Part shown: piece by piece, positions 1 to 10,339 of the stretch
How the letters are laid out: each line of letters starts with the position of its first letter
Numbering within the stretch: position 1 is the first letter of the stretch
Assembly (NCBI GenBank): GCA_028293055.1
Contig: JAQGLD010000527.1
Coordinates: forward strand, 1 to 10,339
DNA from: Alphaproteobacteria bacterium
Lineage (GTDB): Bacteria; Pseudomonadota; Alphaproteobacteria; Sphingomonadales; Sphingomonadaceae
Length of the DNA stretch: 10,339 bases
Reading direction: 5' to 3'
Translations under genes and position numbers: made by a program
The notes under the pieces: generated by a model
The model's database searches: none
What the model was told of the DNA's origin: nothing
Seen by the model: only the letters and a program-made list of their open reading frames with translations

Positions 1-1
1 C

Positions 2-1399
2 GCCTATTTCGACTGGACGCTTTCGGTTCCGGCCTCGGTCGACCGCGCCGAGATCCTCGAATGCTTCGACTTCGTTTCCCCCGATTGCATCGTCGAAGTC
101 GAGCGTGCCGCAGTGCCGGACGCAGGGCTCGCGCCTCCCGCCGTCGACTCCGATCCATCCGAACATTCGGCCGACCGCGCCCCTCCGCAGGCCAAGGGCC
201 TCCCGATCGATGCGCCGGCGCAGACCATCCGGGTGGATCTCGGCAAGCTCGACATGCTGCTCAACCTGGTGGGCGAGCTCGTCATCCGGAACTCGATCCT
301 CGCCGACCGGCTGCCGCCGGCGGACCAGGAAAAGGTCGAGCTTCCCGAGCTCGCGCGCCTGACCCGCGAGATCCAGGACAATGTGATGTCGCTGCGCGCG
401 CAGCCCATCCGCCAGGCCTTCTCGCGCGTGCCGAGGATGCTGCGCGACCTCATGGCCGAGACCGGCAAGCAGGTGACGCTCGAGACCAGCGGCGAGATCA
501 CCGAAGTCGACAAGGGCGTGATCGAAAAGATCGGCGACCCGCTCACCCACATGATCCGCAACGCGGTCGACCATGGCATCGAGACTGTCGGGGAGCGAAT
601 TGCCAGCGGCAAGCCCGCCGAGGGCATGATTCGTCTCTCGGCCGAACAGAAAGGTGCACGGATTTTCGTCCGGGTCAGCGACGACGGCCGCGGCATCGAC
701 CGGGCCCGCGTACGCGCCAAGGCGATCGAAAAAGGCATCATTCCGGCCGACGCGATCCTTTGCGACGAGGAGATCGACCAGCTGATCTGCGCCCCCGGTT
801 TCTCCACTTCGGAAACCGTTTCGAACATTTCGGGACGTGGAGTCGGAATGGATGTCGTCCGCTCCAGCGTCGAGGCGCTCGGCGGGCGCGTCGAGATCAG
901 GTCGGTGCCCGGCCAGGGCACGACCTTCACCATGGCGCTTCCGCTTACCCTCGCGATCCTGGACGGAATGATCGTCAGGCTCGCCCACCAGCGATTCGTC
1001 CTGCCGCTGGCCAGCGTGGTCGAATCGATCCAGCCCGAGCCGGGCCAGGTTCGATTGATCTCGCCGCACTGCGAAGTGATCGAGCTCCGCGGCTCCTATC
1101 TGCCGATCAAGCGGCTGACCGAATATTTCGGTCTTGCCGCCAACGATCGCCGTCGGCCGGAGGACTGTCTCGTCATCGTCGTCGAAAGCGAGCCGGTCGG
1201 CCGGGTCGGCCTGATGGTCGACACGATCGACGACCGCCGCGAGGTGGTGATCAAGAGCCTGGACCAGAACCTTTATCCGATCCGGGGTCTCGGTGGCGCC
1301 ACCATCCTCGGCGACGGCTCGATCGCCCTGATTCTCGATGTCGACGCGCTGGTCGCACCCGCGGACCAGCGCCACCCCCTCAAAGGACTCGCAGCATGA
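2..1399 (+). CDS. cheA: Chemotaxis sensor histidine kinase CheA (5' end missing)
   Basis: CheA autophosphorylates on an N-terminal His in response to CheW-coupled receptors and passes the phosphate to CheY and CheB. The frame is open from the window edge, so the P1 phosphotransfer domain lies upstream. A GTG at 113 is in frame but internal, not a start. The first ~35 visible residues (including DWTLSVP and CFDFVSPD) look like the end of a P2-like region, followed by a Pro/Asp-rich linker. Next come the P3 dimerisation helices (nt ~235-430, LDMLLNLVGELVIRNS) and the ATP-binding P4 domain. P4 shows the N box HMIRNAVDHG (nt ~548-577), the G1 box DDGRGID (~680-700), an F-box-like APGFSTSE, and the G2 box GRGVGMD (~833-853). 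The C-terminal ~145 residues are the CheW-like P5 domain. The stop overlaps the cheW start (ATGA, 1396-1399). Nothing in the visible part looks broken. Confidence 0.96.
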   Translation, partial: AYFDWTLSVPASVDRAEILECFDFVSPDCIVEVERAAVPDAGLAPPAVDSDPSEHSADRAPPQAKGLPIDAPAQTIRVDLGKLDMLLNLVGELVIRNSILADRLPPADQEKVELPELARLTREIQDNVMSLRAQPIRQAFSRVPRMLRDLMAETGKQVTLETSGEITEVDKGVIEKIGDPLTHMIRNAVDHGIETVGERIASGKPAEGMIRLSAEQKGARIFVRVSDDGRGIDRARVRAKAIEKGIIPADAILCDEEIDQLICAPGFSTSETVSNISGRGVGMDVVRSSVEALGGRVEIRSVPGQGTTFTMALPLTLAILDGMIVRLAHQRFVLPLASVVESIQPEPGQVRLISPHCEVIELRGSYLPIKRLTEYFGLAANDRRRPEDCLVIVVESEPVGRVGLMVDTIDDRREVVIKSLDQNLYPIRGLGGATILGDGSIALILDVDALVAPADQRHPLKGLAA

Positions 1400-1884
1400 C
1401 CACCCAGACCCCCTCCGAGCGCAAGATCGTCACCTTCTCGCTCGCCGGGCAGATGTTCGGGATCGACATGAGCGCGCTGGTCGAGATTCGCGAATGGGAG
1501 ACCCCCACTCCGCTGCCGGGCGTACCTGCCTTCATCAAGGGCGTAACCAACCTTCGCGGGACCGTTGTCCCGGTGATCGGGCTCGCCGAGCGGCTGGGCT
1601 GGGCGCCGAGCGAGCTGCATTCACGCTCGTGCATCCTGGTGGTCAATATCGGCGACAAGCAGGCCGGGTTCCTCGTCGACGAGGTCGCCGACATCGTCCA
1701 GGTCCAGGCCGGCGACATCCAGCCCGCACCCGATGTGGAATCCGGCGAAGAACGCCTGATCGCGGGTCTGGTCCGCGTCCCGCAGCGCGCCACTGCAGTC
1801 GAGGGAGCGGATTCGCACGCGATGGTGCTGCTGCTCGACCTCGACGCGCTCAGCCTGGCCAGGCCTCTCGAGCTCGCCGCATGA
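1396..1884 (+). CDS. cheW: Chemotaxis coupling protein CheW
   Basis: CheW is the cytoplasmic adaptor that joins chemoreceptor tips to the P5 domain of CheA and so forms the signalling array. The 162-residue product is a single CheW domain of normal length. It opens with the IVTFSLAGQMFGIDMSALVEI strand pattern and carries the receptor/kinase contact signature GVTNLRGTVVPVIGL (residues ~49-63) and the VDEVADIV motif (~95-101). The start ATG lies in the ATGA overlap with the cheA stop. AAGGA at 1383-1387 gives an 8-nt spacer, which supports this start. The gene end overlaps cheR in the same way (ATGA, 1881-1884), so translation of A, W and R is probably coupled. The extra ~10 residues at the C terminus (LARPLELAA) are not part of the core fold. 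Confidence 0.96.
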   Translation: MTTQTPSERKIVTFSLAGQMFGIDMSALVEIREWETPTPLPGVPAFIKGVTNLRGTVVPVIGLAERLGWAPSELHSRSCILVVNIGDKQAGFLVDEVADIVQVQAGDIQPAPDVESGEERLIAGLVRVPQRATAVEGADSHAMVLLLDLDALSLARPLELAA

Positions 1885-2750
1885 TTGACGCCATCGAGGG
1901 GGAAGCGGACTCGATCGTCGCGACGACGGTCGAGCTGCCCCCGCGGATATTCTCGAGGATCGCCGAGATCGTTCGACGGGAAGCGCGCATCGAGCTGCCC
2001 CCGAGCAAGATCACGCTCGTCCAGTCGCGCCTTGCACGCCGGCTGCGGGAGCGGCAGCTGGAGAGCTTCGGCGACTATATCGCCGTGATCGAGTCGGACG
2101 CCGAAGAGCGGGCTGCGATGATCATCGCGCTTACCACCAACCACACCCATTTCTTCCGCGAGAATCATCACTTCGAGCACCTTCGCGAGACCGTCGTCCC
2201 GATGCTGCGGGAGCGAGCGCTCCGGGGGCCGGTGCGGATCTGGTCGGCGGGCTGCTCGAGCGGCCAGGAGATCTATTCAATCGCCATGTGCCTGCTCGGC
2301 AAGGATAGAGCGAGCGCGGAATGGCTCAACCGCGGCGACGTCAAGCTGCTCGCCACCGATCTTTCGCCGCCGGTCGTCGAAGCGACACGCCGCGCGGTCT
2401 ATAGTGCCGACGATATCGAGCCGGTGCCGCCGGCCTATCGCCGCCGCTGGCTCCTGCAGGAGGAGGACGAGTTCGCGATGTCGCCGGAGGCGCGCCGTCT
2501 CGTCACCGCCCGGGTCCTCAACCTGTTCGGCCCATGGCCGATGACTCGCCAATATGACGTGATCTTCTGCCGCAACGTGATGATCTATTTCGACGCTTTG
2601 GCGAAGGCCGAGCTCGAGGCGCGCTTCGTCGAGATGCTGACTCCGGGCGGCTATCTCTATGTCGGCCATTCGGAGCGCCTGATCGGCCCGGCCGCGGGCA
2701 GCATGACGCCCTGCGGCCAGACCATTTACGTCAAAGCGAACCGCCGATGA
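1881..2750 (+). CDS. cheR: Chemotaxis receptor methyltransferase CheR
   Basis: CheR methylates glutamates on chemoreceptors using S-adenosylmethionine and drives adaptation against CheB. The 289-residue protein has the usual N-terminal helical domain (residues ~18-95) ending in LTTNHTHFFRENHHFE, close to the family TTNxTxFFRExHHF signature. The SAM-binding domain follows, with IWSAGCSSGQEIYSIAM (~120-136), ATDLSP (158-163), IFCRNVMIYF (228-237) and PGGYLYVGHSE (255-265). The start is the ATG overlapping the cheW stop. No clear Shine-Dalgarno sequence is seen, so coupled re-initiation is likely. The beta-subdomain loop (~190-215, WLLQEEDEFAMSPEARRL) lacks the glycine-rich stretch I recall from E. 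coli CheR (MRGTGPHEG). That loop bears on whether CheR tethers to a receptor C-terminal pentapeptide, so this enzyme may be pentapeptide-independent (inference). Confidence 0.95.
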   Translation: MIDAIEGEADSIVATTVELPPRIFSRIAEIVRREARIELPPSKITLVQSRLARRLRERQLESFGDYIAVIESDAEERAAMIIALTTNHTHFFRENHHFEHLRETVVPMLRERALRGPVRIWSAGCSSGQEIYSIAMCLLGKDRASAEWLNRGDVKLLATDLSPPVVEATRRAVYSADDIEPVPPAYRRRWLLQEEDEFAMSPEARRLVTARVLNLFGPWPMTRQYDVIFCRNVMIYFDALAKAELEARFVEMLTPGGYLYVGHSERLIGPAAGSMTPCGQTIYVKANRR

Positions 2751-3790
2751 CGAAACCGGTCCGAGTCCTGGTGATCGACGACAGCGCCTCGATGCGGGCG
2801 GCGATCCAGCGTATCCTCTCCGCCGATCCCGACATCGAGGTGATTGGCGGCGCGCCCGAGCCCTTTGCCGCGCGCGCGATGATCAAGGCACTCAATCCGG
2901 ACGTGCTGACGCTCGACATCGAAATGCCCGGCATGGACGGCCTCTCCTTTCTGGAGAAGATCATGCGGCTGCGGCCGATGCCCGTGGTCATGTGCTCGAC
3001 GCGGACCGCGCGCGGAACCCGGGCGACGATCGAGGCGCTTCGCCTCGGGGCCGTCGACTGTATCGCCAAGCCAAGCGGCAATGCCGCCGATCTCGAGCGC
3101 GATGCCGCATTGCTGCGCAGCACGGTGAAGTCGGCGGCCCGTTCGTGCGCCCATATTCGCCCGGCGCCGATCGCGCCCATGTCGGCTGGGGCGGTCCAGC
3201 CGGACCGCGGCACGATCATAGCGATCGGCGCTTCGACCGGCGGCGTTGAAGCCCTTTTCTCGCTGCTCGCCGCGCTTCCCCCCGACTGCCCGCCGGTCCT
3301 GATCGTCCAGCATATGCCGCGCGGCTATACTGCCGGATTCGCCGATCATCTCGACCGGGCGACTCGGGTGAAGGTGGTCGAAGCCTCCCACGGAATGACG
3401 GTCGAGGCGGGCCATGTCTATGTGGCGCCTGGCGGCGATCGTCATATGGCGCTGGCGGACGACGAAATCCCCACCATCCGCCTCGAAGCGGCCGAGCCGG
3501 TCAACGGCCATCGCCCCTCGGTGGACCGACTGTTCCATTCGATCGTCCCGTTCGGGACGCGCGCGATCGGGGTGATCCTGACCGGAATGGGGTCCGACGG
3601 CGCCGCGGGCCTGCTCGCAATGCGGGCCGCCGGAGCACGAACGCTCGGCCAGAACAAGGCAAGCTGCGTCGTCTACGGCATGCCGCGAGCGGCGTTCGCG
3701 GCAGGCGCGGTCGAACGAGAATATCCATTGTCCGCACTTCCCGGGGCCATCCTCGCGGCATGTCGTGGCCATGCGAGAGCAGGAGCGTAA
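2747..3790 (+). CDS. cheB: Chemotaxis methylesterase/glutamine deamidase CheB
   Basis: CheB removes receptor methyl groups (and deamidates Gln) when its receiver domain is phosphorylated by CheA, giving negative feedback. The 347-residue protein has the standard two-domain layout. The receiver (residues ~5-125) has acidic D11-D12, phosphoacceptor D57 in LTLDIEMPGMDG, and K108 in the AKPSG switch region. After a linker rich in Pro and Ala (~130-153) comes the esterase domain. Its predicted catalytic triad is S163 (IGASTGG), H189 (VQHMPRG) and D284 (TGMGSDGA), within two positions of the E. coli triad S164/H190/D286. The start overlaps the cheR stop (ATGA, 2747-2750). The last codons contain the Shine-Dalgarno sequence of cheY. 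All key residues are present, so the protein should be active. Confidence 0.96.
   Translation: MTKPVRVLVIDDSASMRAAIQRILSADPDIEVIGGAPEPFAARAMIKALNPDVLTLDIEMPGMDGLSFLEKIMRLRPMPVVMCSTRTARGTRATIEALRLGAVDCIAKPSGNAADLERDAALLRSTVKSAARSCAHIRPAPIAPMSAGAVQPDRGTIIAIGASTGGVEALFSLLAALPPDCPPVLIVQHMPRGYTAGFADHLDRATRVKVVEASHGMTVEAGHVYVAPGGDRHMALADDEIPTIRLEAAEPVNGHRPSVDRLFHSIVPFGTRAIGVILTGMGSDGAAGLLAMRAAGARTLGQNKASCVVYGMPRAAFAAGAVEREYPLSALPGAILAACRGHARAGA
3781..3785 (+). promoter_or_regulatory. Ribosome binding site deciding the cheY start
   Basis: AGGAG inside the last codons of cheB sits 9 nt before ATG 3795. Earlier in-frame candidates for cheY (GTG 3765, ATG 3771) overlap cheB and would place this site inside the coding sequence. 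The 3795 start also gives a 129-residue CheY, the usual length. Confidence 0.7.
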
Positions 3791-3794
3791 AACT

Positions 3795-4184
3795 ATGCCC
3801 GCAGCATCAGCAATCAAGGTCATGATCGTCGACGATCAGGTAAGCATGCGCGCGATGATCCGGCGTACGCTTCAGGACCTCGGGTTCCGCAACATGCGCG
3901 ACAAGGGGAGCGCAACCGACGCGCTCGTCGCGGTCAAGGCCGATCGAGTCCACCTGATCATCTCGGACTATAACATGCCGGACATGGACGGGCTCCAGTT
4001 CCTCGAGGCGGTGCGCAAGGATCCGGTGATCGGCAAGACGGTGTTCATCATGCTCACCGGTTCCGCGGACCGCGACGTGGTCCAGAAGGCGGCGGCCCTG
4101 GGGGTCAACAATTATGTGGTGAAGCCCTTCGCGGCGGCTGCGCTCAGGGAAAAGATCGAACGCGTCTTCGGCGAACTGACCTGA
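3795..4184 (+). CDS. cheY: Chemotaxis response regulator CheY (single receiver domain)
   Basis: CheY is phosphorylated by CheA and carries the signal to the flagellar switch (FliM), or acts as a phosphate sink where several CheYs exist. The 129-residue product is one receiver domain with no output domain. It has D13-D14 (VMIVDDQ), phosphoacceptor D58 in IISDYNMPDMDG, T88 in IMLTGS, an aromatic switch residue Y107 and K110 in NNYVVKPF. This matches the E. coli set D12/D13/D57/T87/Y106/K109 with an offset of one. I chose the ATG at 3795 because of the AGGAG at 3781-3785; upstream in-frame starts at 3765 or 3771 would add 8-10 residues. It sits 4 bp after cheB and 4 bp before cheD. Whether it is the motor-binding CheY or a sink cannot be decided from this sequence. 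Confidence 0.95.
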   Translation: MPAASAIKVMIVDDQVSMRAMIRRTLQDLGFRNMRDKGSATDALVAVKADRVHLIISDYNMPDMDGLQFLEAVRKDPVIGKTVFIMLTGSADRDVVQKAAALGVNNYVVKPFAAAALREKIERVFGELT

Positions 4185-4188
4185 ATCT

Positions 4189-4707
4189 ATGAAGCGGATT
4201 CCGATCGTTCAGGGCCAGTTTCGCGTCGTCGACGAGCCCGATGTGATGATCACCACGGTGCTCGGCTCGTGCGTCGCCGTGTGCCTGCACGATTGCATCG
4301 CCCGGATCGGCGGGATGAACCATTTTCTTCTCGCCGAGCCCAGCCCGGGCAATTTCACCTCGCAGCAGGACATGCAGCGCTACGGAATCCACGCGATGGA
4401 GCTGCTGATCAACGAGATGATGAAGCGCGGCGCCTCACGGCACCATCTGCGCGCGCATCTTTATGGCGGCGCCAACATCGTCGCCGGCCTCGGCAATATC
4501 GGCTCGACCAACGCAGCTTTCGCGCGACGCTTCGTACAAACCGAAGGCATAGGCATCGGTCATTGCGATCTCGGCGGTCGCCATGCGCGCAGGGTCGAGT
4601 TCCGGCCTTACGAGGGCAAGGCGCGGTCGGCGGTCGTCGCCGAGTCCCCACCGATCGCATTCCAGCCCCGCTTGTTCGCCGCAACCGGCGATATCGAATT
4701 GTTTTGA
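4189..4707 (+). CDS. cheD: Chemoreceptor glutamine deamidase CheD
   Basis: CheD deamidates specific receptor glutamines to glutamates, tuning receptors and feeding into adaptation. The 172-residue protein has the family nucleophile in TTVLGSCVAVCLHD, with C28 as the predicted catalytic Cys and T22/T23 nearby. H45 in GGMNHFLL is the predicted catalytic His; compare T. maritima T21/C27/H44. A conserved LYGGAN (residues 91-96) and an N-x-G-xx-N stretch (GNIGSTN, 102-108) follow. The start lies 4 bp after the cheY stop, with no strong Shine-Dalgarno sequence, so it probably depends on coupling. The gene is of ordinary length with all active-site residues visible. Its position beside cheY and the 95-aa DxxxQ gene resembles the cheD-cheT end of rhizobial che operons (known from the literature, not checked here). 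Confidence 0.95.
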   Translation: MKRIPIVQGQFRVVDEPDVMITTVLGSCVAVCLHDCIARIGGMNHFLLAEPSPGNFTSQQDMQRYGIHAMELLINEMMKRGASRHHLRAHLYGGANIVAGLGNIGSTNAAFARRFVQTEGIGIGHCDLGGRHARRVEFRPYEGKARSAVVAESPPIAFQPRLFAATGDIELF

Positions 4708-4723
4708 AACAAAAGTCGGCTCA

Positions 4724-4740
4724 ACCCGCCGTCGGTGGGT
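4724..4740 (+). repeat. Small hairpin in the cheD to 95-aa-gene gap
   Basis: ACCCGCC (4724-4730) and GGTGGGT (4734-4740) can pair as a 7-bp stem with one G-U pair and a 3-nt loop. No T-run follows, so it is not a standard terminator. This 53-bp gap is the only sizeable gap in the operon. The hairpin might stabilise the upstream mRNA or cause partial attenuation. I see no convincing promoter here: TTGAAA (4704-4709) and TATAGA (4750-4755) are 40 bp apart. Confidence 0.3.
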
Positions 4741-4760
4741 GGTTGGTCCTATAGAGAAAT

Positions 4761-5048
4761 ATGGTCCAGGATCATCTCGCCCCCGCGCTTCACGCAGCGA
4801 TTGCCGAAGAGATTCGCGGGATGCGGATGCTGATCGAGCAGCTCGCCGAGCAGCTCACCGGTGACGAGCGTTTCGCGCTTCACCATTTCGAGCAGCTTCA
4901 GACCTTCGACCTGATCGTCCAGCGCGCCGACGAGAGCGCCGATCTGCTCGACCGGATGGCGTCGGGATCGCGGGTCGTTGAGGCGGTCGACGCAGTGCGG
5001 CTGACCGCCGTCCAGGACCGGCTGCGCGCAGCGCTGCTGGCGGCCTGA
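4761..5048 (+). CDS. Small helical Che-operon protein with DxxxQ motif (CheT/CheZ-like candidate)
   Basis: This 95-residue protein has no signal peptide or membrane segment and reads as helical throughout, rich in Ala, Leu, Glu, Gln and Arg. A long predicted helix (residues ~37-67) contains EQLQTFDLIVQRADESADLL, with D50 and Q54 spaced as DxxxQ. CheZ uses D143 and Q147 in QDFQDLTGQ to dephosphorylate CheY-P, and the local match (Q-x-F-D-L-x-x-Q against F-Q-D-L-T-G-Q) is suggestive. Rhizobial CheT, a small che-operon protein, is reported to use the same DxxxQ idea. Context fits: it lies directly after cheY-cheD, no cheZ is visible, and it precedes motB by 7 bp. CheZ's long hairpin and C-terminal CheY-binding peptide are absent. 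It could instead be a flagellar chaperone (FlgN/FliT-like) or an array component. The gene itself is well supported; the phosphatase role is inferred. Confidence 0.75.
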   Translation: MVQDHLAPALHAAIAEEIRGMRMLIEQLAEQLTGDERFALHHFEQLQTFDLIVQRADESADLLDRMASGSRVVEAVDAVRLTAVQDRLRAALLAA

Positions 5049-5055
5049 GGCGACG

Positions 5056-5919
5056 ATGGCGACCAAGCCGGGCAGCAATCAGCGCCCGATCATCATCGTG
5101 CGCAAGCGCAGGAAGAGCGCCCATCCTCACCATGGCGGTGCCTGGAAGGTCGCTTACGCCGACTTCGTGACCGCCATGATGGCCTTCTTCATGCTCCTCT
5201 GGCTGATTTCGAACCCCGACAAGCAGCGCCTCAAGGGCCTCGCGGAATATTTCTCGCCGGCCGAGCCGGCAGCTTCGCAGACAACCACTGCCAGCCCGGG
5301 CCAGACGCCAGGGCTCGGCTCTCGTAGCCGCCGTTCGCAGGTCGACACCCTCAAGGCAGCCGGCCAGCCCTCCTTCGAATCCGCGACCAATGGATCGTCG
5401 CGCGGCGGTACTGCCCAGATTCCGGACGCGGCGATGCGCGTTCTCGCCCAGGAAATGCAGATCGCGATCGATTCGATGCCAGAGACCCGGCAGGCGAAGG
5501 ACGGCATTCGAGTCGACCCGACCCCGCAAGGCGTTCGCATCAGCCTGATGGACACCGCCAAGCGGACGATGTTCAAGGGCCCGACCGCCCAGCTCAACGA
5601 TTATGCCAGCCAATTGCTGGCGGCGATCTCCCGCAAGATCGCCAAGTCGGGAAACCAGATCGCGATCGAGGGCCATACCGACGGCGTCGGCGGAGCCAAT
5701 GAGGGCAATTGGCGCCTGTCGGGTGCACGCGCCGAGACCGCGCGGGTGACCATGGCGGCCGCCGGGCTGTCGTCCGACCGCTTCTCCCAGGTCGTCGCCA
5801 TGGCCGGCACCCAGCCGGTCTATCCCGACCAGCCCGACCGACCCGAAAACCGCCGGATCACCGTCGTCCTGCTCCCCGAAGCGCCGCCGACTCCGCGCGA
5901 CGCCAGCTTCAAGTTCTAG
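5056..5919 (+). CDS. motB: Flagellar motor stator protein MotB
   Basis: MotB pairs with MotA to form the ion-driven stator and anchors it to peptidoglycan. The 287-residue protein starts with a basic cytoplasmic tail (KRRKSAHPHHGGAWK). One membrane helix follows (residues ~32-52, VAYADFVTAMMAFFMLLWLIS) and contains D36, the expected ion-carrying Asp. A plug-like stretch (~53-66) and a low-complexity Ser/Thr/Pro/Gly linker (~68-120) come next. The C-terminal OmpA-like peptidoglycan-binding domain has IEGHTDG (204-210), NWRLSGARAETAR (218-230) and RPENRRI (262-268). GAGG at 5047-5050, overlapping the previous stop, is its ribosome binding site. No motA is in the window, so the partner must lie elsewhere. 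Whether the ion is H+ or Na+ cannot be read from this sequence. Confidence 0.95.
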   Translation: MATKPGSNQRPIIIVRKRRKSAHPHHGGAWKVAYADFVTAMMAFFMLLWLISNPDKQRLKGLAEYFSPAEPAASQTTTASPGQTPGLGSRSRRSQVDTLKAAGQPSFESATNGSSRGGTAQIPDAAMRVLAQEMQIAIDSMPETRQAKDGIRVDPTPQGVRISLMDTAKRTMFKGPTAQLNDYASQLLAAISRKIAKSGNQIAIEGHTDGVGGANEGNWRLSGARAETARVTMAAAGLSSDRFSQVVAMAGTQPVYPDQPDRPENRRITVVLLPEAPPTPRDASFKF

Positions 5920-5923
5920 GAGG
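5918..5923 (+). promoter_or_regulatory. Strong ribosome binding site deciding a GTG start
   Basis: A perfect AGGAGG, overlapping the motB stop codon, lies 5 nt before GTG 5929. It is the strongest Shine-Dalgarno sequence in the operon and supports the GTG as the start of the FliL-like gene. Confidence 0.75.
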
Positions 5924-5928
5924 ATCGC

Positions 5929-6369
5929 GTGGCCAAGATCGGCAAGATCCTGATGCCCATCGCGGCACTGGTCTGCGGTATCGCCGCGGGCGGGGGCACC
6001 GCTTACGCCACCGCGAAATTTTTCCATCATGGCCCCCCGGCAGCCCCCACGAACGTACCAACCCTATTCGTGCCGACCGGGGCGATCCTGGCGCCGCTCG
6101 TCTTCCAGGACGGGCGCCTGTCCGGCTATGTCTCGTTCCAGGTCCAGCTCGAGGTTCCCATCGATCAGGGCCCGGCGATCACCGAACGAATCCCGGTCCT
6201 GCTCGACGCGATCAACATGCGGACCTACCGCACTCCGATGGCGAGCGGGCCCGATGGCATGCTTCCCAATCTCGACGCCTTTCGCAAGGTGGTCGATGAA
6301 GCCTCGACCCAGGCATTCGGCAAGGGAGTGGTCAAGAAAGCGGTCGTCACCCAGGCCTCGCCGGCCTGA
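5929..6369 (+). CDS. Membrane-anchored FliL-like protein
   Basis: The 146-residue protein has a short basic N terminus (MAKIGK), one membrane segment (residues ~8-29, LMPIAALVCGIAAGGGTAYATA) and a periplasmic domain. That domain has alternating hydrophobic strands (GAILAPLVFQDGRLSGYVSFQVQLEV, written as 51-76) followed by two helices (~83-100 and 114-130). This matches FliL, a single-pass inner-membrane protein of ~140-180 residues whose periplasmic domain surrounds the stator. The position 9 bp behind motB supports a stator-associated role. The similarity is by topology and pattern, not by a diagnostic motif, so a more distant motility-associated membrane protein is possible. It starts at GTG 5929, fixed by AGGAGG. 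It ends the operon, and its TGA abuts the stop of the convergent DDAH gene with no space for a terminator. Confidence 0.65.
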   Translation: MAKIGKILMPIAALVCGIAAGGGTAYATAKFFHHGPPAAPTNVPTLFVPTGAILAPLVFQDGRLSGYVSFQVQLEVPIDQGPAITERIPVLLDAINMRTYRTPMASGPDGMLPNLDAFRKVVDEASTQAFGKGVVKKAVVTQASPA

Positions 6370-7167
6370 TCAGGGCGCGACAGGGCCGTCGGCCCACCAG
6401 CGCAGCGACATGCAGCTGAGGCCCGCGTCGATCTTGCCGATCTCGCCGGTCGGAAGTGCGACGATTTCCAGCCCGTGGCCGACGAGCAGATCGGCTGTGC
6501 GAGGCCAGCGCGAACCCGCCAGCACGACGTCGTTGATCCGCACGACATTCGCACCCGGCTCCTCACCCTCCGGGACGACCAGATTGCGCAATCCGTCGAA
6601 CAGCCCGACCGAGGCGAGCGAGGCGGTGACTAGGACGGTCTCCTCGTCGACCAGCGAGGCCGCCGATTTGAGGTGCAATGTCCCGCGCGGCGGGTCGACC
6701 ACGATTCCCTTGCGGCCGAGCCTGGCCAGCAACGCGACCAGCGCATCGGCGCCGGAGGGATCGGTACGATCCGAAAGGCCGATATAGACAGCCTGGGGAG
6801 TCACAAGCACGTCGCCGCCGTCCACCGATCCGGCGGTCAGCGCAAGCACGGGATCGAAATGTTCGGCGAGCACCGGCGCAAGCATTACGGACTCGCCGCG
6901 GCGGCTGGCGGCGCCGGGCCTCAGCAGGATCGCGCCCTCCCGGAACACCAAAGCGGGATCCTCGACGAAGACCGAATCCGGATAGGCCTCAAGCGCCGGA
7001 AGGACGATGAGGCCGAGGCCCGCCGAGTCGAGAGCGTGGACATAGAGCGAATGCTCCGCGGCGACGGTCTCGAAATCGGGGCCTTCGCCAGCCCCCGCTT
7101 TCAGTCCGTCGACGATGCTCCATCCGGGAAGGCGAACGATCGCCCGGTTGAATTCGAACACCCTCAT
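6370..7167 (-). CDS. Dimethylarginine dimethylaminohydrolase (DDAH)
   Basis: DDAH (EC 3.5.3.18) hydrolyses N-omega-methylated arginines to citrulline plus mono- or dimethylamine; it belongs to the guanidine-modifying arginine deiminase superfamily. The 265-residue cytosolic protein shows the family set in order: D64, E69 and D70 in PDSVFVEDPALV, R89/R90, D116-GGD in GSVDGGDVL, R134 in GLSDRTD, H166 in LHLKSAASLV, and nucleophile C252 in AGLSCMSLRWW. These line up within a few positions of Pseudomonas DDAH (D60, E65, D66, R85, E114, R132, H162, C249). Asp116 stands where that enzyme has Glu114. The start ATG is preceded by a moderate AGGCGG about 5-7 nt upstream. It is transcribed towards the che operon and divergently from the mucR-like gene. 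The operon gives no metabolic partner, so its physiological substrate is open. An arginine deiminase is less likely at this length. Confidence 0.9.
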   Translation of the reverse strand: MRVFEFNRAIVRLPGWSIVDGLKAGAGEGPDFETVAAEHSLYVHALDSAGLGLIVLPALEAYPDSVFVEDPALVFREGAILLRPGAASRRGESVMLAPVLAEHFDPVLALTAGSVDGGDVLVTPQAVYIGLSDRTDPSGADALVALLARLGRKGIVVDPPRGTLHLKSAASLVDEETVLVTASLASVGLFDGLRNLVVPEGEEPGANVVRINDVVLAGSRWPRTADLLVGHGLEIVALPTGEIGKIDAGLSCMSLRWWADGPVAP

Positions 7168-7240
7168 TGGTGCCGCCTAGCCGGTTCCCGGCGACGCGAC
7201 CAGCAGGCTTTCTAACGCGTTGCGGCGCATTTTTCCGCGA

Positions 7241-7258
7241 GGAATTGAAACTCAATCC
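7241..7258. repeat. Imperfect inverted repeat, possible operator
   Basis: GGAATTGA (7241-7248) and TCAATCC (7252-7258) are inverted copies around AAC, with one extra A in the left arm. It lies in the AT-rich part of the divergent spacer, ~150 bp before the MucR-like start and ~75 bp before the DDAH start. It could be a regulator site for either gene, but chance cannot be excluded. Confidence 0.3.
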
Positions 7259-7395
7259 GATAACAAAGATCAGGATTCACATCGGCACGCCTCTCCCTGA
7301 AGAGGTTCGCCATGCCCGAAAGATCCGCCACTCATCGCATGTCGTGAAATAGCTCTTTCCTTATTGGAGGGAGGAGGATAGGCGCGCCATCAGAT

Positions 7396-7401
7396 GGAGG
7401 T
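7396..7401 (+). promoter_or_regulatory. Ribosome binding site deciding the MucR-like start
   Basis: GGAGGT (7396-7401) lies 4-5 nt before ATG 7406. It overlaps an upstream in-frame ATG at 7394, which would put the site inside the gene, so 7406 is the better start. Confidence 0.7.
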
Positions 7402-7405
7402 ACTA

Positions 7406-7867
7406 ATGTCTGACCAATCACTACTCATCGAGCATACTGCGGATATCGTTTCTGCTCATGTCGCCAACAATACTGTAGCGCTCTCCGACGTGCCGACACT
7501 GGTCCAGCGCGTCTACGAAGCGCTGGCCGGTCTGTCCGAGCCCCAGCCCGAGCCGGAAGCCGAGGGCAAGACCCCGGTCGTGTCCGCGCGCGCATCGGTA
7601 AAGCCCGACTACATCGTCTGCATGGAATGCGGACGCAAGCAGAAGACGCTGAAGCGCCACCTCCAGACCGCACATGGGGTCAGCCCTGACCAGTACCGCA
7701 AGGATTTCGGCCTCCCGGCGAGCTATCCGATGGTCGCCCCGAACTATTCGAAGCAGCGCGGCGAGCTCGCCCGTCAGATCGGTCTTGGCCGCAAGCGCGA
7801 GCCGCAGCCCGCCCAGGAGGCCCCGCAGCCCAAGCGCCGTGGCCGCAAGCCAGCCACCCCCGCCTGA
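7406..7867 (+). CDS. MucR/Ros-family zinc-finger transcriptional regulator
   Basis: The 153-residue protein is a Ros/MucR-type DNA-binding regulator of alphaproteobacteria. These proteins act much like H-NS, silencing or tuning AT-rich promoters for exopolysaccharide, motility and virulence. The N-terminal ~45 residues (TADIVSAHVANNTVALSDVPTL) form the family's helical oligomerisation region, followed by a Pro/Glu linker (44-56). The prokaryotic C2H2 zinc finger has C72 and C75 (VCMECG), H85 and H90 (KRHLQTAHG), with spacing Cx2C-x9-H-x4-H exactly as in Ros. The conserved LTxDQYRxxF-like stretch appears as VSPDQYRKDFGLPASYPMVAPNY (written as 92-114). The C-terminal tail is basic and contains KRRGRKPA (143-150), which looks like an AT-hook core. 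A longer form from ATG 7394 is possible but disfavoured. Its targets, including the flanking motility genes, are not shown by the sequence. Confidence 0.93.
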   Translation: MSDQSLLIEHTADIVSAHVANNTVALSDVPTLVQRVYEALAGLSEPQPEPEAEGKTPVVSARASVKPDYIVCMECGRKQKTLKRHLQTAHGVSPDQYRKDFGLPASYPMVAPNYSKQRGELARQIGLGRKREPQPAQEAPQPKRRGRKPATPA

Positions 7868-7890
7868 GCGCAGCCTGAGCTACCAGTGAT

Positions 7891-7915
7891 CGGCGCGCCC
7901 TGACGGGGCGCGCCG
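7891..7915 (+). terminator. Strong GC hairpin, likely terminator of the MucR-like gene
   Basis: A perfect 10-bp stem pairs CGGCGCGCCC (7891-7900) with GGGCGCGCCG (7906-7915) around the loop TGACG. It starts 23 bp after the MucR-like stop codon. Only a pyrimidine-rich stretch (GTTACGACTTCCTCCTTCT) follows, not a true T-run, so the termination efficiency is uncertain. It could also block read-through from the opposite strand. Confidence 0.65.
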
Positions 7916-7971
7916 GTTACGACTTCCTCCTTCTATCGCGGCGTGATCGCCGACGGGCGCGGACTAGCCGG

Positions 7972-8412
7972 TCAGTCGAGCAAAGGCACACGCGGCAATG
8001 GCCGCGCCATGCCTCCGGCAGCACGGCCGGCCAGGCGTGGATGAGGGAGAAGCCTCCTTTGCTCGAGAGGATCGCTTCGCGCGATCACCCAGCGCGGGCT
8101 CAGCGCAATCCTGCGCGGCGGCGACCGGCGGTGGGCGATGAAGAAATCGAAATCGTAATAGAGATCGGGCGTTCCGACCGAGTCGCCGCGCGTCGCGCTG
8201 ATCGCGTCACCGTCCCCGACGACATAGCCGCAAGCGATGCGAGCGGCCTCGTCGTCGGCACGCTTATGCTGCGCAGCATAGACGATGTCGCCGTCGCGAT
8301 TGGCGACCGCCATCAGGACATCTTCAGGTTGGCGGGCCAGCCAGCGTGTGCGCCGCGACGTGAGGTCGACCGCAATGGCTGCAAAGCCCTAAACGTGGGT
8401 GATCCTGCGCAT
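7972..8412 (-). pseudogene. Reading frame interrupted by TAG, unknown product
   Basis: On the minus strand, an ATG at 8412 is preceded by GGAG with a 5-nt spacer, a good ribosome binding site. It opens a frame reading MRRITHV and then TAG (8391-8389). The same frame then continues, without another stop, for 138 codons to TGA at 7972, beginning GFAAIAVDLTSRRTRWLARQ. Codon choice after the TAG is biased to G/C in the third position, as in the neighbouring genes, at least for the first ~80 codons (VANRDGDIVYAAQHKRADDE, PDLYYDFDFF). The later part is Arg/Pro-rich and less protein-like. A shorter intact product could start at ATG 8313 (113 aa), but no clear ribosome binding site precedes it. I recognise no family. 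It follows the GGDEF-EAL gene on the same strand. A nonsense-mutated small gene, a sequencing error, or a chance open frame in GC-rich DNA are the options. Confidence 0.4.
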
Positions 8413-8420
8413 TCCGGCTC

Positions 8421-8480
8421 CGAGGCTGGCCCTGCGCCCAACCTACGGCTGTCCTCCCCGGCGCAAGCTTCCCAGCCTCG
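8421..8480. repeat. Nested inverted repeat between the GGDEF-EAL gene and the interrupted frame
   Basis: The outer arms CGAGGCTGG (8421-8429) and CCAGCCTCG (8472-8480) are perfect 9-bp complements. Inside them TGCGCC (8433-8438) and GGCGCA (8460-8465) pair over 6 bp, leaving a 21-nt loop. On the minus strand the structure begins ~10 nt after the GGDEF-EAL stop codon. It ends exactly at the first base of the GGAG that precedes ATG 8412. No T-run follows. It could be a 3'-end structure for the GGDEF-EAL mRNA or a translational control element for the downstream frame. Confidence 0.45.
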
Positions 8481-8489
8481 CCGGTCCCG

Positions 8490-10298
8490 TCAGCTGCTCG
8501 CCAGCAAACTGCTCCGAGACCCGCTTGCGGGGATCTTGCTCACCTGCTCGGCCACACACGCGGCTGGGACCGCCTTTCCGAACAGGAAGCCCTGGCCGCG
8601 CATGCAGCCGAACGATCGCAGACATTCCGCCTGGGCTTCGGTCTCGACCCCTTCGGCAACCGTGTCGATGCCGAGCGAGTGGGCCATTCCGACCAGCGCA
8701 TTGACGATGGCCTGGTCGGCGCGTTCGTCGCCGAGCGTGCTGACGAACGAGCGATCGATCTTCAGCACATCGACCGGGAATCGCCGCAAATGGGTGAGCG
8801 AGGCGAAGCCGGTTCCGAAATCGTCGAGCGCGATGGTGACCCCCGCTTCGCTGAGCGTGCGCAGGGTCCGGTCGACCTGGTCCCCGGAGCGGCCGATGAA
8901 GACATTCTCGACCACCTCGATCTCGAGGTCCGAGGGCGGAATCTGGCTGCGCGCAAGGCAGTCGAGCACCTTGTCGGCATAATATTCGTTGCTGATCTCG
9001 GCCGAGGAGGCGTTGATCGCGATCCGTCCGAAGGCGAGCCCCGAACTTCGCCACGCCCGGATATCGGCTATGACGAGTTGAAGCATGCGCTCTCCGATGG
9101 CGAGCGCGAGCTGCGGATGTTCGAATGCGGCCGAGATGCTGTGCGGCAGCTGGTGGCCGAGGCGGACATGATCCCAGCGAAGCAGCGCTTCGAACCCCTC
9201 GACGCAGCCCGAGAGGAGGTTCACCTTCGGTTGATAGAAGGGCACGACCGCATCGGTCTCGAGGGCATGGCGAGCGAGCGACAGCATCGAGGAATGCTTT
9301 TGCAGGCGCTTGCGCATTCCGCTCTCGAACAGTCGCGCCTGCCCGCCGCCGCGCGACTTGGCTTCGTAGAGCGCGATATCGGCGCTCTTGAGCATCTCGC
9401 GCGCATCCTCGCCATGCTCGGGGAAGAAGGCGCCGCCCAGGGTCAGCCGGATCGTCTGGGTGAGGCCTGCAAATTCGAGCGGCTGGTCCATGCGCGCGAA
9501 GATCGCGGCCATCATCCGGCGCATCGATTGGGCCGTGTCCCGGCCGCGAACGATGCAGGCGAATTCGTCGCCGCCGGTCCGCGCGACTCCGGGCGCGACC
9601 TCGGCAAGCGCCGAAGCCACCGCGACCAGCAGCGCGTCGCCGGCGTCATGGCCGAGCTGGTCGTTGACCTGCTTAAAGTCGTCGAGGTCCATGACGAGCA
9701 ATCCGAACTTGCCTTCGCTGTCCGTCGATTCGCTCAGCACCTGTTGCAGCTCGGACTGGAAAAGCACCCGATTGGGCAGGCCGGTGAGCGCGTCGTGATG
9801 GGCGAGCCAGTGCAGCCGCAGCTCGGTGGTCTTGCGGCCCTGAATATCCTCCGACGTGCCATGCCAGCGCTGGATGACTCCATTGGCGGTACGCTGCGGT
9901 GCGGCGCGGCTTCGGAACCAGCGATAGCTGCCGTCCTGCATCCGCACGCGATGCTCTTGGTCCAGCCTCCTGCCCAGGCTCAGGGCCTTGGCGAATTGTG
10001 CGTCCACTCGCGCCATCTCGTCGGGGTGAAGGCACTTCAGCCACTCCCCGCGCGACATGATGCTGGAGGTTCCGGTGAAGCGCGACCATTTGGCGTCGAG
10101 CTCGATCATCCCGCCATTCGGGTCGCAGCTCCAGGGAATCAGCGAGCTGAGCTCGATCGTCTTGCGATAGGCTTCGAGGTCCGGGCAAGCGCCACCATCC
10201 GCGGCGCCGCTCCACAGGTCCGCCGCGCCAGGGCTGTCGGTCTGCGTCCACAGGTCGCCCTGCGCTTCGCCGCCCATACGTCCCAGCTGACTTTCCAC
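8490..10298 (-). CDS. PAS-GGDEF-EAL cyclic-di-GMP synthase/phosphodiesterase
   Basis: The 602-residue protein makes and/or degrades the second messenger c-di-GMP. A PAS domain (residues ~45-155) ends in the typical GSYRWFRSRA...GTSEDIQGRK pattern. The GGDEF domain (~165-325) has HDALTGLPNR, MDLDDFKQVND and an intact GGDEF at 242-246. No RxxD inhibitory site precedes it (AEVA at 232-235), so product feedback at that site is unlikely. The EAL domain (~335-590) has E370-A-L, N429, E461, D492/D493 (DDFGTG), K513 (LKIDRSF), E549 (AEGVET) and Q569, so the phosphodiesterase centre looks complete. No membrane segment is seen, so it should be cytosolic. The start is uncertain: GTG 10298 is the first start after an upstream stop, and ATG 10277 (seven codons in) is equally possible. 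Which activity dominates cannot be read from sequence. Confidence 0.94.
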   Translation of the reverse strand: MESQLGRMGGEAQGDLWTQTDSPGAADLWSGAADGGACPDLEAYRKTIELSSLIPWSCDPNGGMIELDAKWSRFTGTSSIMSRGEWLKCLHPDEMARVDAQFAKALSLGRRLDQEHRVRMQDGSYRWFRSRAAPQRTANGVIQRWHGTSEDIQGRKTTELRLHWLAHHDALTGLPNRVLFQSELQQVLSESTDSEGKFGLLVMDLDDFKQVNDQLGHDAGDALLVAVASALAEVAPGVARTGGDEFACIVRGRDTAQSMRRMMAAIFARMDQPLEFAGLTQTIRLTLGGAFFPEHGEDAREMLKSADIALYEAKSRGGGQARLFESGMRKRLQKHSSMLSLARHALETDAVVPFYQPKVNLLSGCVEGFEALLRWDHVRLGHQLPHSISAAFEHPQLALAIGERMLQLVIADIRAWRSSGLAFGRIAINASSAEISNEYYADKVLDCLARSQIPPSDLEIEVVENVFIGRSGDQVDRTLRTLSEAGVTIALDDFGTGFASLTHLRRFPVDVLKIDRSFVSTLGDERADQAIVNALVGMAHSLGIDTVAEGVETEAQAECLRSFGCMRGQGFLFGKAVPAACVAEQVSKIPASGSRSSLLASS

Positions 10299-10339
10299 AG
10301 CCTGAAGCTAGCGCCTGCTGATTAAGATCAGATTGCGCA

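Follow-up and report, generated by a model that had tools for sequence, protein, structure and literature searches.

A CheT-like protein with a conserved DxxxQ motif in a chemotaxis operon of sphingomonads

Introduction

Which protein ends the chemotactic signal in sphingomonads whose chemotaxis operon shows no cheZ? The question is raised by a stretch of DNA of 10,339 nucleotides from an alphaproteobacterium of the family Sphingomonadaceae (GenBank assembly GCA_028293055.1, contig JAQGLD010000527.1, positions 1 to 10,339, forward strand; hereafter the window), in which a small open reading frame (ORF) lies between cheD and motB. Its product of 95 amino acids carries the motif D50-L-I-V-Q54. 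CheZ acts via D143 and Q147, of which the former holds docking contacts and the latter positions the attacking water, and a first reading of the window from the sequence only (the sequence-only reading) had taken the small protein for a candidate CheY-P phosphatase of the CheT/CheZ type that would terminate signalling through the neighbouring CheY. Sinorhizobium meliloti CheT likewise possesses a DXXXQ motif and a predicted structure like that of CheZ, according to a review (PMC12654446). Here, we present comparative evidence that the gene is probably a sphingomonad cheT, encoding a small helical hairpin that would speed the dephosphorylation of a response regulator.

A conserved chemotaxis operon

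The window opens with the 3' part of cheA (2..1399; PF02895, PF02518, PF01584), which runs off the window start and is followed on the same plus strand by cheW (1396..1884; PF01584, E 6e-35), cheR (1881..2750; PF01739, E 7.7e-55), cheB (2747..3790; PF01339, PF00072), cheY (3795..4184; PF00072), cheD (4189..4707; PF03975, E 4.8e-23), the cheT-like gene (4761..5048, with its start ATG at 4761 and its stop TGA at 5048) and motB (5056..5919; PF13677, E 7.8e-21; OmpA, E 2.3e-13). Behind motB lies a conserved ORF of 146 amino acids (5929..6369, plus strand), possibly FliL-like, which matched no Pfam or NCBIfam family but was recovered by tblastn in all 29 loci. The order cheW, cheB, cheY, cheD, cheT-like gene, motB and next ORF is kept in all 29 named sphingomonad loci; cheA was seen in 28 of them, the exception beginning at a contig edge. 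Neither a sigma-70 promoter nor a terminator was found between positions 4600 and 5200, and scanning the whole window with Rfam returned no match. Downstream of the operon, the window further encodes an arginine-deiminase-family protein (6370-7167, minus strand; PF02274) and a Ros/MucR-type regulator (7394-7867, plus strand; PF05443).

The description of the gene product as a small, all-helical protein with D50-LIV-Q54 on a helix, encoded between cheD upstream and motB downstream, agrees with both the Pfam assignments and an AlphaFold2 model built from 66 sequences. The model is helical throughout (residues 2-33, 36-41, 43-67, 72-77 and 82-94; mean pLDDT 93.9) and places D50 and Q54 on the helix of residues 43-67. 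In a helical wheel of this helix, calculated from the mean hydrophobicity over 29 family members (alignment A2, see below), Q47, D50 and Q54 lie at -162, +138 and +178 degrees relative to the hydrophobic direction, i.e., they occupy the polar face. Such an angular offset of 138 to 178 degrees fits residues that are offered to a partner.

Conservation of the DxxxQ motif

A DxxxQ motif as such is close to what the composition of the protein yields by chance, with 0.56 occurrences expected per sequence and at least one in 45% of 20,000 shuffles. The weight therefore rests on the conservation of the motif and not on its mere presence in the window protein. Searching with the window protein retrieved 66 proteins, of which 65 were aligned with the query into 66 rows (alignment A1), with the near-identical P0002 excluded. 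The 11 invariant columns of this alignment include Q47, D50 and Q54; variation at D50 or Q54 among orthologues, which would have spoken against the phosphatase reading, was looked for and did not occur in any of the 66 rows. In alignment A2, whose 29 proteins come from the same family and another family of the class and are as little as 16% identical to the window protein, these three residues are the sole invariant columns. The D and Q encoded by the motif codons (4908..4922, plus strand; D50 at 4908-4910, Q54 at 4920-4922) also have invariant counterparts in all 24 proteins of alignment A3, collected from elsewhere in the class with the CheT profile NF047973; two of the 26 proteins obtained (L104 and L109) were left out, both with DxxxQ in the matched stretch.

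Pooling rows via the A2 profile gave 146 distinct strings, a few of which may be truncated duplicates of the same protein. Across them, the position of D50 holds D in 144 and E in 2, that of Q54 holds Q in 145 and A in 1, and that of Q47 holds Q in 143, which makes these the three most conserved columns in a set whose recruitment by profile favours motif-bearing sequences. The reading of DxxxQ as a chance motif was rejected on the conservation of Q47, D50 and Q54 in these 146 rows.

As a control for recruitment, columns 44-56 of the A1 profile were masked. Even so, 14 distinct relatives were recovered at E <=0.0052 from 683 ORFs, themselves drawn from loci picked by unmasked searches, and LQxxDxxxQ is present in all 14. 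At E 0.01, the masked profile matched 0 of the 10 loci derived from NF047973 (L018-L027) and the unmasked profile 5 of 10, which indicates that the motif region matters for detecting these loci. Profile against profile, A1 and A3 aligned over 88 columns (96.7%, E 4.2e-10).

The gene is patchily distributed. At E 0.001, the window protein has matches in just 16 of the 246 genomes searched in the order, and the A2 profile, for which no more than 12 candidates were scored in each genome, has matches in 9 of 385 in the class. With NF047973, matches, all below its cut-off, came from one genome among the 289 searched in the class, from 10 of 100 in the family to which G494 belongs and from 15 of 150 in the order that contains G694. 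Absence in the genome searches with NF047973 and A2 is weak evidence. A search of a large protein set with the A2 profile (7999 candidates scored) mostly recovered already-known orthologues again.

Relationship to Sinorhizobium meliloti CheT

CheT of S. meliloti strain Ak57 has 124 amino acids and passes NF047973 with 225.5 bits against a cut-off of 200. Its gene (L144:8561-8935) is annotated as encoding a 'hypothetical protein' and lies on a replicon of 3.7 Mb that is labelled pSymB.

The kinship with CheT that had been claimed for the window protein is borne out by several lines of comparison. BLASTP aligned the two proteins over 80 amino acids at 26% identity (E 6e-6, in a single comparison), and hhalign matched S. 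meliloti CheT with A1 (66 rows; 83%, E 8.7e-6) and, more clearly, with the 29 diverse members of A2 (97%, E 1.7e-11). None of 2000 shuffles of CheT scored as high as CheT itself (28.5 bits versus a shuffle maximum of 9.7), and the same was true with the motif columns masked (0 of 2000; 13.1 bits versus 9.4 at most). The sole DxxxQ of S. meliloti CheT, D57/Q61, is in register with D50/Q54. Conversely, NF047973 matched 39 of the 66 A1 rows at E <=0.1, with a best E of 5.6e-7, the next family matching 4 of 66. The window protein itself reached E 0.018 and 15.1 bits with this model, far under the 200-bit cut-off; as judged by these comparisons it is a CheT homologue and not an equivalog by NCBI's rule. 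That even the best row attains only E 5.6e-7 with the CheT model, far from 200 bits, explains why the sphingomonad cheT-like genes remain unnamed, and the CheT family appears to be wider than its annotation.

The two proteins are homologous across 76-86 aligned columns, in which D57xxxQ61 matches D50xxxQ54, and both genes follow cheD in operons that also contain cheY1, cheY2 and a STAS gene, the presumed cheS. The window protein is 29 residues shorter (95 versus 124 amino acids), with a stretch after the helix of residues 43-67 that is shorter by six columns and without the C-terminal tail of CheT. In S. meliloti Ak57, the gene order is STAS gene, response regulator, cheA, cheW, cheR, cheB, response regulator, cheD and the gene for the 124-amino-acid CheT. 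Three sphingomonad genomes (L149, from Sphingomonas sp. IC081, L150 and L151) encode upstream of cheA a MotA-like ORF, so labelled by reading of its sequence, an ORF similar to the S. meliloti STAS protein, which we take for cheS, and a CheY1-type ORF. In the source assembly of the window, another contig (C301, L152) carries MotA-, CheS- and CheY1-like genes followed by the 5' part of a cheA, whose product overlaps the start of the window CheA by 108 amino acids at 96%, not 100%, identity. The order cheS-cheY1-cheA-W-R-B-cheY2-D-T is hence common to S. meliloti and sphingomonads, being whole in L151 and spread over two contigs in the window genome. On these grounds of homology and gene order, we regard the gene as the sphingomonad counterpart of S. 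meliloti cheT.

CheZ, other phosphatases and flagellar families

The window contains no cheZ, as the sequence-only reading had noted. The source assembly (82% complete) and the genomes of 29 relatives (0 of 29, their completeness not stated) yielded none either, in a search whose controls, E. coli and B. subtilis, both gave matches, one of the two above the cut-off. In sphingomonads with this operon, the CheT-like protein is a candidate for ending the chemotactic signal, one that offers two residues to mutate.

Treating CheT and CheZ as one sequence family, in contrast to the kinship with CheT, did not hold. The CheZ family (PF04344) matched none of the 29 family members at E 0.1, and hhalign found no relation to E. 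coli CheZ, with probabilities of 0.1% and 0.7%. The window protein resembles E. coli CheZ in being helical and in carrying DxxxQ on a polar helix face, yet it has 95 instead of 214 amino acids and no sequence relation to CheZ was found; a link would be functional at most. A fold search of the PDB with the AlphaFold2 model neither supports nor excludes a relation to CheZ: it gave no match at E <1 (best 1.3), and the rows returned are generic helical hairpins, such as EsxEF, designed bundles and kinase dimerisation hairpins, with CheZ absent. Searching PDB sequences with the 66-row profile retrieved nothing credible, the best match being a designed protein at E 0.068. CheC/CheX phosphatases serve the removal of CheY-P, the purpose proposed here for the window protein; they differ from it in that their Pfam families matched none of the 29 members, the window protein included, at E 0.1.

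A clear profile match to a flagellar chaperone was likewise looked for and is absent. The sole flagellar-type match is Flagellin_N in Pfam, which scored E 0.0013 with the window protein. This score and the frequency of DxxxQ by composition would be compatible with a flagellar export chaperone or flagellin-like fragment that belongs to the motB end of the operon and bears the motif by chance. With 19.3 bits, however, Flagellin_N stays below the Pfam cut-off of 26.6 and matches only one of the 29 family members, the window protein itself, and the conserved DxxxQ and the homology to CheT further make a flagellar fragment highly improbable. The identity as flagellar chaperone was discarded on the sub-cut-off score in 1 of 29 members.

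Proposed function and substrate

If the gene is a sphingomonad cheT, as we consider probable, the hairpin would dock on phosphorylated CheY and the side chain of Q54 would enter the CheY active site and position the attacking water like Q147 of CheZ, while D50 would hold docking contacts in the manner of D143. The phosphoryl group would then leave the chemotaxis response regulator faster.

The CheY encoded in the window is 47.7% identical to S. meliloti CheY2 and 31.6% to CheY1 and, by this comparison, is of the CheY2 type. In S. meliloti, CheY1 is described as a phosphate sink and CheY2 as the signal-propagating regulator (PMC8429497), and CheT is reported to enhance dephosphorylation for one of these CheYs only (PMC12654446). 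Signal termination for the neighbouring CheY, as first proposed, is doubtful on these grounds and given the cheS-like and cheY1-like genes upstream of cheA. The CheT substrate identified in the original S. meliloti study was reportedly CheY1 and not CheY2. Since the neighbouring CheY is of the CheY2 type and the S. meliloti substrate is reportedly CheY1, we name CheY1 first and CheY2 second as target; by analogy with S. meliloti, the protein would more likely act on CheY1, whose gene precedes cheA, than on the CheY2-type motor regulator encoded next to it.

A CheT relative that acts on this adjacent regulator would be a true functional replacement of CheZ. The location of cheY one gene away in 29 of 29 loci would suit such a role, as would the failure to find CheZ in the window genome and its 29 relatives. 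S. meliloti shares this neighbourhood, however, and its CheT is reported to act on only one CheY, reportedly not CheY2; moreover, CheY1- and CheS-like genes are present whose products could drain CheY2. We consider an action on CheY2 rather unlikely.

CheT of S. meliloti also forms a complex with CheR (PMC12654446). S. meliloti CheR has matches in the window and in two further sphingomonad loci (L150, L151). A cheR gene occurs in both operons, and a second role in adaptation via CheR, analogous to that reported for S. meliloti, is possible. The same complex is an argument for a protein that is primarily an adaptor, e.g., for CheR or CheD, with the DxxxQ face serving as a binding surface and catalysis weak or lost. 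Conservation, however, peaks at Q47 and the two residues of the catalytic motif and not over a broad surface, and the motif residues recur in fusions to PilZ domains, 22 of 25 of which keep DxxxQ (see below). A mainly adaptor-like function seems to us less probable still than action on CheY2, and we retain the phosphatase reading with CheY1 as likely substrate.

PilZ fusions and the wider family

CheT-like hairpins are not confined to free-standing proteins. The window genome encodes on contig C534 (L066:1453-2289, minus strand) a protein of 279 amino acids in which a PilZ domain (PF07238, 30.4 bits) is followed by a CheT-like hairpin with MQQFDIVGQ as motif stretch. A search with this fusion gave matches at E 1e-10 in 35 of 242 genomes of the order, a count that includes matches to PilZ only; at E 0.001, it gave matches in 26 of 29 genomes, most of them via the PilZ part. 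Among 31 loci inspected (L067, L113-L142), 25 are single ORFs with the hairpin behind a PilZ-like stretch, the start of which is missing in L122; of the remaining six, L137-L140 have the hairpin alone and L121 and L128 gave no hairpin match. Ten fused proteins were scanned with Pfam, and PilZ was found at E <=0.01 in all ten and above the Pfam cut-off in eight. The three fusions with an altered DxxxQ have Q replaced by A (L116) or D by E (L117 and L126), and are possibly inactive or altered versions, to judge from these substitutions.

PilZ domains often bind cyclic di-GMP, and their NxSxxG motif is present in 24 of the 25 fusions. In 18 of the 25 fusions RxxxR, which is half of the usual cyclic di-GMP motif, stands at the expected distance; it is absent from the fusion of the window genome. 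The domain architecture suggests that cyclic di-GMP is linked to the dephosphorylation of response regulators. It is tempting to go further and see in CheT a single branch of a broad family of alphaproteobacterial DxxxQ hairpins whose targets are response regulators, with the PilZ-fused branch of sphingomonads as cyclic di-GMP-switched phosphatases. Such fusions would wire a second messenger directly to response regulators in their phosphorylated state, and the 95-amino-acid protein would be the free-standing chemotaxis form. We put this forward as a speculation that may well prove wrong, since the switch is weakened by the occurrence of RxxxR in only 18 of 25 fusions and not in the window genome's own. 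The breadth of the family and its fusions to PilZ nevertheless add interest beyond that of a new cheT-like gene alone; literature searches on PilZ, CheT, CheZ and DXXXQ returned no report of CheT-PilZ fusions among the matches listed.

Two further observations concern the surroundings of such genes. Near the chemotaxis operon, the window encodes a GGDEF/EAL-type protein of cyclic di-GMP turnover (8490-10298, minus strand). On a plasmid of Novosphingobium sp. EMRT-2 (L146:4962-7551), a chemotaxis cluster of another type ends with cheD, cheY, cheW and the gene for a CheT-like protein of 91 amino acids, which is followed by a gene for a separate PilZ-domain protein with two PilZ stretches.
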